The translations under genes were made by a program, and so were the position numbers. Below, piece after piece: positions 1,600 to 5,732 of a stretch of DNA of 64,000 nt. Source of the stretch: Lachnospiraceae bacterium (GTDB lineage: Bacteria > Bacillota > Clostridia > Lachnospirales > Lachnospiraceae). How positions within the stretch are numbered: the stretch's first letter is position 1; each line of letters opens with the position of its first letter. The notes under the pieces are model-generated. The model had not been told where the DNA came from, did not search any database, and worked only from the letters and a program-made list of their open reading frames with translations. The DNA lies in contig SVFD01000002.1 of the NCBI GenBank assembly GCA_015057025.1, forward strand, positions 124,001-188,000, given 5' to 3'.

Positions 1600-2304
1600 G
1601 TGAGTCAGACAGATATAAAAATGAATTATGTACAGGTATTACATAATATAAAAAATGCTTGTGATAAAGCCGGACGTAATAAAGAAGACGTTACTCTTAT
1701 AGCGGTATCTAAAACAAAACCTGTTGAAATGTTGCAGGAAGTATATGATGCAGGCTGTAGGGACTTTGGTGAGAATAAGGTACAGGAAATCATGGATAAA
1801 TATGATAAACTTCCTTCTGATATTCGCTGGCATATGATAGGACATTTACAGACCAATAAAGTTAAGTATATTGTAGATAAAGTATATATGATTCACAGTG
1901 TTGACAGTATGAAGTTAGCAAAAGAAATCAGCAAAGAGGCATTAAAGAAAAATGTAACGGTCAAAATCTTATTAGAAGTAAATGTTGCAAAAGAAGAGAG
2001 TAAATTCGGAATGATGTCTGAGGAAGTCAAAAATTTTTACAAAGAAGTTATTGACTTGCCGGGTCTGGAAGTGTGTGGATTGATGACGATTGCACCATAT
2101 GTTGAGAATGCAGAAGAAAATCGTCAATATTTTGTGAATTTAAAGCAATTAGTAGTTGACATAGCAGACGAAAAAACTGATAATAAAAGTATAGGTGAAT
2201 TGTCAATGGGGATGACCGGTGATTATGAAGTTGCAGTAGAGGAAGGTGCAACCTATGTAAGGGTCGGAACCGGCATATTCGGTGAACGAAATTATGCGAT
2301 TTAA
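1600..2304 (+). CDS. yggS: YggS family PLP-binding protein
   Basis: This 234-residue single-domain protein has the fold-type III alanine-racemase-like barrel of the YggS/PROSC family, which buffers pyridoxal 5'-phosphate and amino-acid pools in the cytosol and has no settled enzymatic activity. The PLP lysine is K38 in AVSKTKP. Family motifs FGENKVQE, WHMIGHLQTNK and VRVGTGIFG are present. The start is GTG at 1600 with AAAGGCAGG upstream; an ATG at 1621 lacks a ribosome binding site. It sits 26 bases after the HlyD-like gene and 26 before sepF, an arrangement usual in Gram-positive division clusters. Confidence 0.95.
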   Translation: MSQTDIKMNYVQVLHNIKNACDKAGRNKEDVTLIAVSKTKPVEMLQEVYDAGCRDFGENKVQEIMDKYDKLPSDIRWHMIGHLQTNKVKYIVDKVYMIHSVDSMKLAKEISKEALKKNVTVKILLEVNVAKEESKFGMMSEEVKNFYKEVIDLPGLEVCGLMTIAPYVENAEENRQYFVNLKQLVVDIADEKTDNKSIGELSMGMTGDYEVAVEEGATYVRVGTGIFGERNYAI

Positions 2305-2330: not shown

Positions 2331-2831
2331 ATGGGTGTAATGGACAAATTTTTAAATGCTATGCAGTTAAATGATAATACATATGAGGGCGAAGATGACT
2401 TTTACGATGATGGAGTAGAAGAGGAAGTAGCTCCCGTTAAAGTTTCTGCAAAGCAAGATGATGCAGTTATTGAAGAGAAGCCAAAGAAGTCTGTATCTAA
2501 AGTCACACCAATGAAGCAGAATAGAAGAAATAATAGTTCTAACGGAGGCGGAATGAGAGTTTGTGTTATTAGACCTACATCAATTGAAGAATGTCGTGAA
2601 ATTACAGATACTTTGTTGAGTAATCGCACTGTTGTTTTAAATTTGGAAGGTCTTGATGTTGACATTGCACAAAGAATTATTGACTTTACTTCAGGTTCTT
2701 GTTATGCAATGGCAGGTAATATGCAGAAGATTTCTCACTATATCTTTATTATTACACCTGCGTCTGTAGATATTTCAGGTGATTTCCAGGATATTATCAG
2801 TGGTTCTATTGATGTTCCTGACATTCAGTAG
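2331..2831 (+). CDS. sepF: Cell division protein SepF
   Basis: SepF polymerises into rings that tether FtsZ to the membrane during septation. The 166-residue protein has a short N-terminal amphipathic stretch (MGVMDKFLNAMQL), an acidic then basic linker up to about residue 75, and the conserved SepF domain from MRVCVIRPTSIEECREI to the end, with the motif VVLNLEGLD and the glycine-containing FTSGSCYAM turn. AAGGAG lies eight bases before the start. It follows yggS in the usual order and is closed by a terminator at 2876-2904. Confidence 0.95.
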   Translation: MGVMDKFLNAMQLNDNTYEGEDDFYDDGVEEEVAPVKVSAKQDDAVIEEKPKKSVSKVTPMKQNRRNNSSNGGGMRVCVIRPTSIEECREITDTLLSNRTVVLNLEGLDVDIAQRIIDFTSGSCYAMAGNMQKISHYIFIITPASVDISGDFQDIISGSIDVPDIQ

Positions 2832-2875
2832 ATAGATATATCTTATCGGATACATTGTATGAAATAAGTTATATA

Positions 2876-2904
2876 AACTTCCCGTATTATGCGGGGAGTT
2901 TTTT
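2876..2904 (+). terminator. Rho-independent terminator after sepF
   Basis: AACTTCCCG pairs with CGGGGAGTT over a seven-base loop, followed by a run of six T. It separates sepF from the next gene; a good -10 box (TATAAT, 2959-2964) lies downstream of it. Confidence 0.9.
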
Positions 2905-2984
2905 ACCTTATGACGTTTATATTTTAGGGAAAATATCTTTGTAACATTTATATATTACTATAATGATAAAGAGGAATAAATATT

Positions 2985-4043
2985 ATGTGTGAAACAATCT
3001 ATATTGAAAAAAATAAATCAAGCCGATTTGGAGTGCATTTTTATAATGATTCAACAGAATGGAATGTATTTCTGGAGTCTTGTGGAGTAAATGCAGATAA
3101 ACTTGCGGTTATTTATAATAAAAATATTGAAAATGAAACATGGAAAGCTTTTGCGGAAGCAAAGAACAATAAGGCAGTTTTACCAATTTCGGCAGAGGAT
3201 GCCAATAAGTCTGCAAGTGTAAGAAATTTTTTAGAACAAAATAAAGAGAATTATACCTTTGTGATTCTGGAAGAGCCATTTATAATGGAAACGATTCGTG
3301 GAATTGTAACATCTGATGATTATAAACTTTCATATATTTTGGTTCCGGTAACCCCCTTTGCACAGTTTGATAGTGTTTCCATCAGACCTAAGACAGATTT
3401 GGTCGGTGATATAATTACAAAGGAAATCTTTCCACTTGGAATTTATGTAGATACCTCTGTAATATTAAATGCTAAAACACAATATTTTTTGGGCGGTATT
3501 GCATGTGCATTCAGATTGGCTGTTTCATATAAAGCTTCTATGTTTGAATGGATGATTTCTAATTTATATGAATTGCTTGATTGTGAAGCAGAAGCTGTTT
3601 GTGAGCTTTTATGTCGAGGATATAATGTACATAAAGAACGCATTGAAAAGGATACGGCAAAGGAACGTTCACTTCCGGTTTACGGAAGAGATTTTTATAC
3701 TCTTTTTTCACAAATGAAATCAGAGTCTTCAGAAGCGGATTTGTTAGCTCTTTCTATGGTTTGTCAGTCATATCTTTCATGGAAGTCAGAGCTTTTATCA
3801 ATGGAAGAATACTATGAAATTCGTGATATGTTTGTTGCTTTCGGGCTTGCGATTACCGAAACTTTCGCAACAGATGAGGAATTAATGGATGCATTAGAGA
3901 GAACAGAGTCGGATTTAATTGCCGGCAAAGAAGGGGTTTATATTCGTAAGCTTGGTAAAATGGTTATTATGAACGCACCTTCAAAAGAGTTAATAAAAGA
4001 AGCTTTTGGCCAAATTTATTATAATGAATATGAAAATGAGTAA
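2985..4043 (+). CDS. Degenerate 3-dehydroquinate synthase-like protein
   Basis: By eye this 352-residue protein lines up along its length with AroB, the NAD- and metal-dependent 3-dehydroquinate synthase. VPVTPFAQFDS (120-130) matches VPTTLLAQVDS, LGIYVDTSVI matches the KAVLIDTD strand, and FEWM (187-190) matches FEWLE. The active-site residues are gone. The glycine-rich NAD loop GGGVxGD is EEPFIME (96-102). The metal-binding Glu of GLAEVIK is Cys174 in GGIACAF. The His of FGHTFGH is lost in YGRDFYTLF (233-241), and the His of HGEAVAxGM is Glu250 in EADLLALSM. It is probably not a working AroB. It has its own -10 box and lies four bases before rluD. I infer a pseudoenzyme or a changed activity. 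Confidence 0.6.
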   Translation: MCETIYIEKNKSSRFGVHFYNDSTEWNVFLESCGVNADKLAVIYNKNIENETWKAFAEAKNNKAVLPISAEDANKSASVRNFLEQNKENYTFVILEEPFIMETIRGIVTSDDYKLSYILVPVTPFAQFDSVSIRPKTDLVGDIITKEIFPLGIYVDTSVILNAKTQYFLGGIACAFRLAVSYKASMFEWMISNLYELLDCEAEAVCELLCRGYNVHKERIEKDTAKERSLPVYGRDFYTLFSQMKSESSEADLLALSMVCQSYLSWKSELLSMEEYYEIRDMFVAFGLAITETFATDEELMDALERTESDLIAGKEGVYIRKLGKMVIMNAPSKELIKEAFGQIYYNEYENE

Positions 4044-4046
4044 TAT

Positions 4047-4955
4047 ATGGAAAAATTAGTATTTCAAGTTCCTCAAGAAATGGAAGGGGAACGACTGGAT
4101 GTGTTTATTAACGAATGGATTGATACAGTGTCCAGAAGTTATTTGCAAAAGTTAATAAAAGAAGGACAGGTGTCTGTTAACAGTAAAAGTGTTAAGCCCA
4201 GTTTTACCGTAAAAACGGATGATGAGGTCATAGTATGCCTTCCGGAGGCTGTAGAACCTGAAATTAAGGCCGAAAATATTCCTTTAGATATTTTATATGA
4301 AGATAAAGATGTGTTGGTTGTAAATAAGCCCAAGGGAATGGTTGTGCATCCTGCAGCAGGTCATTACGAAGGGACACTTGTAAATGCACTTATGTATCAT
4401 TGTAAGGATGATTTGTCCGGTATCAATGGTGTAATGCGTCCGGGTATTGTACATCGAATTGACAGAGATACCACAGGCTCTTTAATTGTTTGTAAAAATG
4501 ATTTTTCGCACCAGGCAATTGCTGCACAATTAAAAGAACATTCTATTAAACGTATTTATAAAGCAATTATAACCGGTAATTTTACGGTAGAAGAAGGAAC
4601 TATTAATGCGCCAATCGGGAGACATCCTACAGAACGCAAGAAAATGGCAATTAATTCCAATGGGCGTGAGGCAATTACGCATTATAAAATTTTAGAACCA
4701 TTAAAAGGTTATGCTTATGCGCAGTTTCAGTTAGAAACCGGAAGAACCCATCAGATTCGTGTTCATATGGCAAGCAAGGGGCATCCTTTACTGGGGGATA
4801 CCGTATATGGCAGTGGTAAAGATCCTTATCATACCAATGGACAGGTCTTACATGCTCAAACACTTGGATTTATACATCCCAGAACAAGGGAGTATATTGA
4901 AGTGAATGCACCATTACCGGAATATTTTGAAAAACTGTTAAATAAGTTAAGATAA
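4047..4955 (+). CDS. rluD: RluD-family 23S rRNA pseudouridine synthase
   Basis: The 302-residue protein has an N-terminal S4 RNA-binding domain (about residues 14-75) and a RluA/RluD catalytic domain. The catalytic aspartate is D139 in HRIDRDTTGSLIV. The domain also has the expected NKPKGMVVHP strand and the ETGRTHQIRVHM motif. Members convert uridines to pseudouridine in the helix 69 region of 23S rRNA; the exact targets here are inferred from the family. It starts four bases after the DHQ-synthase-like gene and is probably co-transcribed with it. Confidence 0.93.
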   Translation: MEKLVFQVPQEMEGERLDVFINEWIDTVSRSYLQKLIKEGQVSVNSKSVKPSFTVKTDDEVIVCLPEAVEPEIKAENIPLDILYEDKDVLVVNKPKGMVVHPAAGHYEGTLVNALMYHCKDDLSGINGVMRPGIVHRIDRDTTGSLIVCKNDFSHQAIAAQLKEHSIKRIYKAIITGNFTVEEGTINAPIGRHPTERKKMAINSNGREAITHYKILEPLKGYAYAQFQLETGRTHQIRVHMASKGHPLLGDTVYGSGKDPYHTNGQVLHAQTLGFIHPRTREYIEVNAPLPEYFEKLLNKLR

Positions 4956-5105
4956 AATTATTTTGTTTTTTTAAAAAGATTAAAGCGATATAGAATATTA
5001 TATAATTAAAAAAATAGTCGAAACAAATGACATTTTATGTTATAATTTTATTATAAAATGAGATGGTATATGGGGATATATTCTTAATAATAAGGGGGTA
5101 TTTTT

Positions 5106-5732
5106 ATGAATAGTAATACCGTTATTACAATCGGAAGACAATTTGGTTCCGGTGGTCATGAAATTGGTGAAAAATTAGCAAAATCTTATGGGATTCCCTG
5201 CTATGATAAGGAATTATTAGCAAGAGCTGCAAAAGAAAGTGGATTTTGTGAAGAAATGATTAAAAATCATGACGAAAGACCTACAAATTCTTTTCTTTAT
5301 AATCTTGTTATGGATACATATTCTATGGGATATTCTACAGGTGCATATGTTGATATGCCTATTGGTCAGCGCGTGTTTTTAGCACAATTTGACACAATAA
5401 AAGAAGTAGCAAAAGAGGGCGCTTGTGTAATTGTTGGTCGCTGTGCTGATTATGCACTGAGTGAACAGGTAGAATGCATTAACATTTTTATATATGCTGA
5501 TATGGATGTACGTATTAAAAGAATTATGGAAAAATATAATTTGTCTGAAAAAGAGGCAAAGGATATGATTACGAAGAAAGATAAACAGAGAGCCAGCTAC
5601 TATAATTATTATTCCAATAAGAAGTGGGGGCAGGCTTCTTCTTATAATCTTTCAATCGATAGCGGTGTTCTTGGAATTGATGGTACTGTTGAAATGTTAA
5701 AGAATTTTATTGATGCAGCAAGTAGAAAATAA
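5106..5732 (+). CDS. Cytidylate kinase-like family protein
   Basis: A 208-residue P-loop nucleotide kinase-like protein. TIGRQFGSGGHEIGEKLA (residues 8-25) is the modified phosphate-binding loop of the cytidylate-kinase-like family, followed by YDKELL and, later, VGRCADY. These proteins are widespread in Clostridia beside the true Cmk, and their substrate is not established. AAGGGGG lies eight bases before the start. The 150 bases upstream are very AT-rich and contain TATAAT at 5041-5046, so it probably has its own promoter. A terminator follows directly. Confidence 0.85.
   Translation: MNSNTVITIGRQFGSGGHEIGEKLAKSYGIPCYDKELLARAAKESGFCEEMIKNHDERPTNSFLYNLVMDTYSMGYSTGAYVDMPIGQRVFLAQFDTIKEVAKEGACVIVGRCADYALSEQVECINIFIYADMDVRIKRIMEKYNLSEKEAKDMITKKDKQRASYYNYYSNKKWGQASSYNLSIDSGVLGIDGTVEMLKNFIDAASRK

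Follow-up and report, generated by a model that had tools for sequence, protein, structure and literature searches.

Within a stretch of 64,000 nucleotides from a Lachnospiraceae genome (hereafter the window), the frame lying between sepF and an rluD-type gene encodes a protein, here called X, a displaced resident aroB that is probably kept for a second, non-catalytic function of its C-terminal domain that predates the loss of catalysis. Behind this reading stand descent from 3-dehydroquinate (DHQ) synthase, a second aroB, purifying selection, a set of retained columns and an independent case in a second genus, all of them observed. In short, an old AroB copy of some gut bacteria, replaced elsewhere in the genome, has lost its active site and often half of its length, and the near-unchanged state of a small patch suggests a second job of an ordinary enzyme. 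The features of the locus are collected in Table 1.

Table 1. Features of the X locus in the window (positions are those of the window; residues are those of X).
Feature	Position	Strand	Basis
yggS-type gene, same cluster, upstream	1600..2304	+	TIGR00044
sepF, upstream neighbour of X	2331..2831	+	PF04472, 97.9 bits
Terminator-like hairpin separating sepF and X	2875..2901	+	scan of 2700-5200
X, DHQ-synthase-fold putative pseudoenzyme, 352 aa, displaced resident aroB	2985..4043	+	open ORF, fold, gene slot
EEP, residues 96-98 (E96-E97-P98), where intact AroBs carry NAD-loop GGG	3270..3278	+	
C-terminal helical domain, residues 165-352, part kept in C-only homologues	3477..4040	+	
Cys174 replacing metal-binding Glu	3504..3506	+	
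Tyr195-Glu196, invariant in 22/22 genus homologues	3567..3572	+	
Helix EEYYEIRDMFVAF, residues 274-286; E278, I279, R280, D281, V284 invariant 22/22	3804..3842	+	
RluA-family pseudouridine synthase (rluD-type)	4047..4955	+	TIGR00005, 323 bits, above cut-off

Fold and Lost Active Site

An earlier note on this DNA, made from the letters alone, had described X as a DHQ-synthase-like protein and proposed structure prediction with a fold search as a check. The AlphaFold2 model of X (pLDDT 89.7, pTM 0.89) indeed shows the DHQ synthase fold: the best 50 of 774 rows returned by Foldseek against the PDB (E <= 10) all belong to DHQ synthases and their relatives, and among these 50 the best E value is 1.8e-16 with a TM score (by query) of 0.71, 3okf_A gives a TM of 0.75, and the rmsd is above 5. 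Sequence profiles stay below their cut-offs, with 18.5 bits against 27.6 for DHQS_C and 19.9 bits against 305 for the AroB model TIGR01357; a DHQS_C match at E 0.01 or better is found in 16 of 18 genus members.

The active-site residues of X were placed by comparison with intact AroBs of the same gene slot, using the functional roles in AroB of the NAD loop, the metal ligands (Glu and two His), the Lys and the catalytic His. The replacement of catalytic residues that the note had claimed is found throughout the site: EEP stands in place of GGG, the metal-binding Glu has become Cys174 and the Lys three residues past it Arg177; Arg235 and Thr239 replace the two His of NFGHTxGHA, and Glu250 replaces that of HGE. 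The pattern extends to the homologues. None of the three Gly of the NAD-loop motif GGG..GD is kept in any full-length form (0/4). Across the homologues of the genus whose frame is complete (22), Glu174, His235 and His239 are gone from every one, His250 from 20 and Lys177 from 18. Judged by its sequence, X is a pseudoenzyme, a protein of catalytic-family descent whose catalytic residues have been lost and which is under selection.

Gene Order and Expression Signals

X has an open, full-length frame of 352 aa and is flanked by sepF and the rluD-type gene, as described before. The name rluD-type was chosen for the latter gene, which scores 260 bits with the RluD model, below the cut-off of 351. 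Only 3 nt separate the stop of X from the start of this gene; X adjoins it directly (4043-4047) because the genome's own lspA sits elsewhere, at G000:C6:163669-164094, away from the sepF-rluD cluster. In many relatives of the window genome, lspA precedes rluD. AGAGGA can be read ahead of the ATG of X. The good promoter that had been ascribed to X was not confirmed, since no sigma-70-like site directly upstream of 2985 on the + strand came up in the promoter scan (2700-5200).

A Second aroB and the Ancestral Slot

A true aroB, for which a search had been recommended, is present elsewhere in the window genome, at G000:C14. It gives a strong PF01761 match and is the sole PF01761 aroB there; its translation carries GGG, NFGHT and the remaining motifs, and the surrounding gene order can be read as aroF-tyrA-aroB-aroA.

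Two sets of loci from other genomes describe the slot that X occupies. The first was assembled by motif: GTDB genomes were scanned for one conserved peptide and the best 80 of 517 confirmed relatives were taken; among these 80, sepF is present in all, rluD in 77, and an intact NAD loop (GGG..GD) in the slot AroB of 77, the three without it being the genus relatives G001, G006 and G020 under their public names. The second set consists of 40 places hand-picked down the list of best places from a search of 299 family genomes. Among these 40, GGG..GD is found in all, rluD in 39 and sepF in 35, and the motif EIRD in 19; two further places read EMRD or EVRD. In other Lachnospiraceae, AroB has its home between sepF and rluD, often with lspA before rluD. 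In a phylogenetic tree, 22 X sequences form one clade (100/100) and four operon AroBs another (100/98); branches are long, and the bootstrap is unsettled. The label 'EIRD' in that tree follows a loose pattern and is wrong for one row (L185), which stands outside the motif group in all counts. By this comparison of sequences and neighbours, X is no newcomer to the division cluster but the aroB that resided there in this family all along, and it decayed where it stood once it had been displaced. Recruitment of an unrelated protein was also considered and was rejected on the DHQ synthase fold together with the gene slot.

Stepwise Trimming within the Genus

Thirty-one genomes of the genus were searched for X. 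Matches were obtained in 24, and X is counted as present in 23, because the match in G028 coincides with the true aroB of that genome. The eight genomes without X (G011, G013, G016, G019 and G027-G030) have rluD relatives that are weak at best and lack yggS save for a fragment in G016; the cluster is taken to be missing from them, through an assembly gap or loss, and they were not scored as losses of X. Conservation of the position had been named as a further check: sepF neighbours X at all 23 loci and rluD at 21, the remaining two stretches stopping at contig edges. A PF01761 aroB match elsewhere is found in 29 of the 31 genomes, in a few of them in short or cut frames. The genome G035 gives no PF01761 aroB match; its lspA-rluD pair (L201, G035:C37:88000-96000) is preceded by a frame read as glycosyltransferase-like, not AroB.

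The length of X varies widely among the 23 genomes. Four carry forms of 349-352 aa, seven of 256-301 aa and two of 238 aa, and in ten only the C-terminal domain is left (nine of about 204 aa and one truncated at the end of a contig). The C-only form has a predicted structure with pLDDT 86.5 and pTM 0.85, and DHQ synthases are matched by it over part of their length (best E 7e-8, TM 0.79 by query and 0.48 by target).

Selection on X

X is under purifying selection. There is no internal stop in 22 X frames, and in nine of 15 pairs, those outside the full-length group and with C-only forms included, dN/dS is 0.006-0.12. Three pairs of the full-length group give 0.17-0.26, values that are unsure because dS is 1.6-2.2. 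Three further pairs are undefined from saturation. For the same pairs, sepF, yggS and rluD have dN/dS of 0-0.21, and wherever a full-length pair gives a value (three pairs), the dN of X is the highest among the four genes. Within full-length forms, identity is 0.41-0.55 in the N-domain versus 0.54-0.66 in the C-domain; at 0.41-0.55, the N-domain of these forms is not plainly free. The claim that X is kept rather than decaying stands for the genus, with dN/dS values that are unsure in the full-length pairs.

An Independent Case in Another Genus

Eighty low-scoring genomes of the family were read for AroB and rluD. One of them, G243, belongs to another genus, and next to its rluD lies a short AroB frame that encodes a C-only protein of 191 aa between sepF and lspA, with an ATG and AGGAG 12 nt ahead. 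This protein retains YEI and EYYEIRDMFVPFNLPIS and shares the helix of X, whereas the Glu, the Lys and the three His are replaced by Tyr, Gln, Met, Asn and Asp. A full-length aroB lies elsewhere in G243, with 50% identity to the window genome's own. Four of its five genus mates (G352, G353, G355 and G356) have an intact AroB in the slot; the fifth, G354, has a single AroB match, weak and operon-like. In a BLAST search with the G243 C-domain, the two best scores come from two genus mates, at about 42% identity. A tree of sepF and rluD groups G243 with four mates (100/100), and for these two genes a grouping of G243 and nine X rows is rejected (p-AU 1e-42). In a neighbour-gene tree without the mates, G243 had joined the motif row L157 (99/91); this grouping was dropped, as G243 groups with its mates and not with L157 once they are added. 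On the evidence of these trees, the C-only trimming in G243 is independent of that in the window's genus.

Lineages without AroB in the Slot

By reading, 68 of the 80 low-scoring genomes have both AroB and rluD, and seven have AroB within 3 kb of rluD, a count that may miss some because drafts and contig ends hide them. In 15 stretches without AroB nearby (two of them from genomes without any AroB match), tblastn at 1e-3 detected no AroB-like piece between sepF and rluD. Displacement need not leave a remnant, and these lineages may never have had the motif. Thirteen of the 15 stretches (L205-L216 and L221) have between sepF and lspA a frame that reads as YlmH-like, and one such frame, when tested, matches PF17774 YlmH_RBD. 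The notion of X as a YlmH stand-in was rejected: a 58-aa YlmH query matched five of 12 genomes, so YlmH and cluster AroB are not strict alternatives in them, and it gave no match in four genomes of the window's genus. Frames of AroB are split in G063, G141 and G169, on two contigs each, with at least those of G141 and G169 at contig ends. In L204 (G151:C34), close to the end of a contig, the AroB next to rluD is spread over two frames, through either a break or an error of the draft, and no other aroB was found in G151.

Residues Retained in the C-Terminal Domain

The test covered C-domain columns that reach >=90% conservation among the intact AroBs of the motif clade (24 sequences). Another 19 cluster AroBs served to split them, a column being enzyme-wide at 80% or more there and clade-specific at 50% or less. 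Among the 22 X sequences, only two of 43 enzyme-wide columns (S265 and G324) are kept in >=90%, versus six of eight clade-specific columns (E196, E278, R280, D281, V284 and I290). Fisher's test gives p 4e-5 for this difference, a value that serves only as a guide, because the columns are non-independent and the 22 X share one origin. Y195, I279 and K322 are likewise invariant in the 22 X. The kept clade-specific columns fall mostly within one helix, EIRDxxV. In the 19 other cluster AroBs, polar letters occupy position 195 in all 19, position 278 in 15, position 281 in 18 and position 284 in 15, which suggests exposed sites. From these letters we infer that the retained residues may lie together on the surface and serve to bind a partner.

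The same helix is present in the single PF01761 aroB of G033 and of G036, a working enzyme in each. Because these genomes carry it in their only PF01761 aroB, the constraint on the helix predates the loss of catalysis and has outlived it. The helix is absent from the four operon AroBs that were examined.

Possible Function and Alternatives

The course of events that we favor would be as follows. An aroB elsewhere in the genome would take over the reaction, allowing the resident aroB to lose catalysis, and the C-domain of the clade's AroB would carry a second, non-catalytic function, already selected in the intact enzyme. With catalysis dispensable, the NAD domain would erode partly or wholly while the C-domain stays. 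The working element would most likely be a partner-binding patch made of the helix EEYYEIRDMFV and Tyr195-Glu196. Gene order, the sole source of these guesses, points to an RluD-type protein or the ribosome as a possible though rather unlikely partner, and to SepF as a less likely one. On a wider scale, it can be tentatively proposed, with a plausibility just short of even, that AroB has two functions throughout a large Lachnospiraceae clade, with a C-domain that binds neighbouring division or ribosome-modification machinery, and that lineages outsourcing catalysis have trimmed the protein to this module at least twice independently.

Several other readings account for part of the data. The retained residues might represent only a folding core, e.g., a buried salt-bridge network, with X kept for another property of the C-domain; that this domain is predicted to fold alone and that I279 and I290 are hydrophobic and kept would fit such a core, but the enzyme-conserved residues of the domain are mostly gone from X (2/43) and positions 195, 278, 281 and 284 are mostly polar in other AroBs, making this explanation unlikely. 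It is exceedingly improbable that X is a decaying pseudogene, or a frame held open only for ribosomes to reach rluD. X of the full-length group does evolve faster than its neighbours and ends 3 nt before rluD; however, the stop-free frames of 22 homologues, the low dN/dS of nine pairs including C-only forms, and residues invariant in 22/22 reveal constraint at the amino-acid level, and pseudogene decay is refuted as far as sequence allows.

Other readings assign X a role closer to that of the enzyme. X might regulate, as a partner, the catalytic AroB made from the other locus, and it does co-occur with a second aroB (29/31 genus genomes have a PF01761 match elsewhere), but the helix is already conserved in the single-aroB genomes G033 and G036 and is missing from the four operon AroBs; a subunit of catalytic AroB was for this reason set aside as the main reading and is improbable. 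A new catalytic or ligand-binding activity in a remodelled two-domain cleft would agree with the two-domain fold kept in the model of the window protein and with the moderate N-domain identity of the four full-length forms. Nevertheless, half of the cleft is missing wherever only the C-domain is left, both in the genus and in G243, so that such an activity is not the shared role, and this proposal is very improbable. A like objection applies to the nucleotide binding that the earlier note had offered as one example of a new role: C-only forms lack the whole NAD domain, which makes it unlikely that the shared role is to bind a nucleotide in the old cleft, although the broader idea of a conserved pseudoenzyme with a new role is supported. 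A displaced resident aroB kept for a C-domain function thus remains our preferred reading.

Relation to Known Systems

If the wider, bifunctional reading is true, a hidden function of a textbook housekeeping enzyme has been exposed. One slot in one family displays the whole route from intact enzyme to full-length dead protein, partly trimmed forms and a bare C-terminal domain, and the second independent case adds genus mates of G243 that still have the intact enzyme. Evolution has performed here a natural deletion experiment that marks a few residues as important. A hidden AroB function is thereby directly testable, and the C-only proteins allow a search for partners without interference from catalysis.

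A literature search conducted mainly on abstracts found no report of a dead DHQ synthase or of such trimming; in the one paper found to contain both '3-dehydroquinate synthase' and 'pseudoenzyme', the latter word is applied to TrpC-TrpF. For the AroB of Synechocystis and its Nostoc homologue, an RNase-dependent shift is reported (PMC12475003). These proteins may resemble X in a possible second, RNA-linked role, which is a lead only, and they differ from it in being intact cyanobacterial enzymes.

The closest known system is the cluster copy of 3-dehydroquinate synthase AroB of Lachnospiraceae (TIGR01357; PF01761, PF24621), with which X has in common the fold, the slot and the C-domain helix of the EIRD clade. 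Unlike cluster AroB, X is devoid of the NAD loop, the metal ligands and the catalytic His, has profile scores far below the cut-offs and, in part of the genus, is missing the N-domain. Pseudoenzymes, which have reportedly been reviewed by Jeffery in 2019, in general conserve a fold without its catalytic residues under purifying selection, and X is alike in this. What sets X apart from pseudoenzymes generally is the stepwise trimming to one domain within one genus, together with an independent second case.
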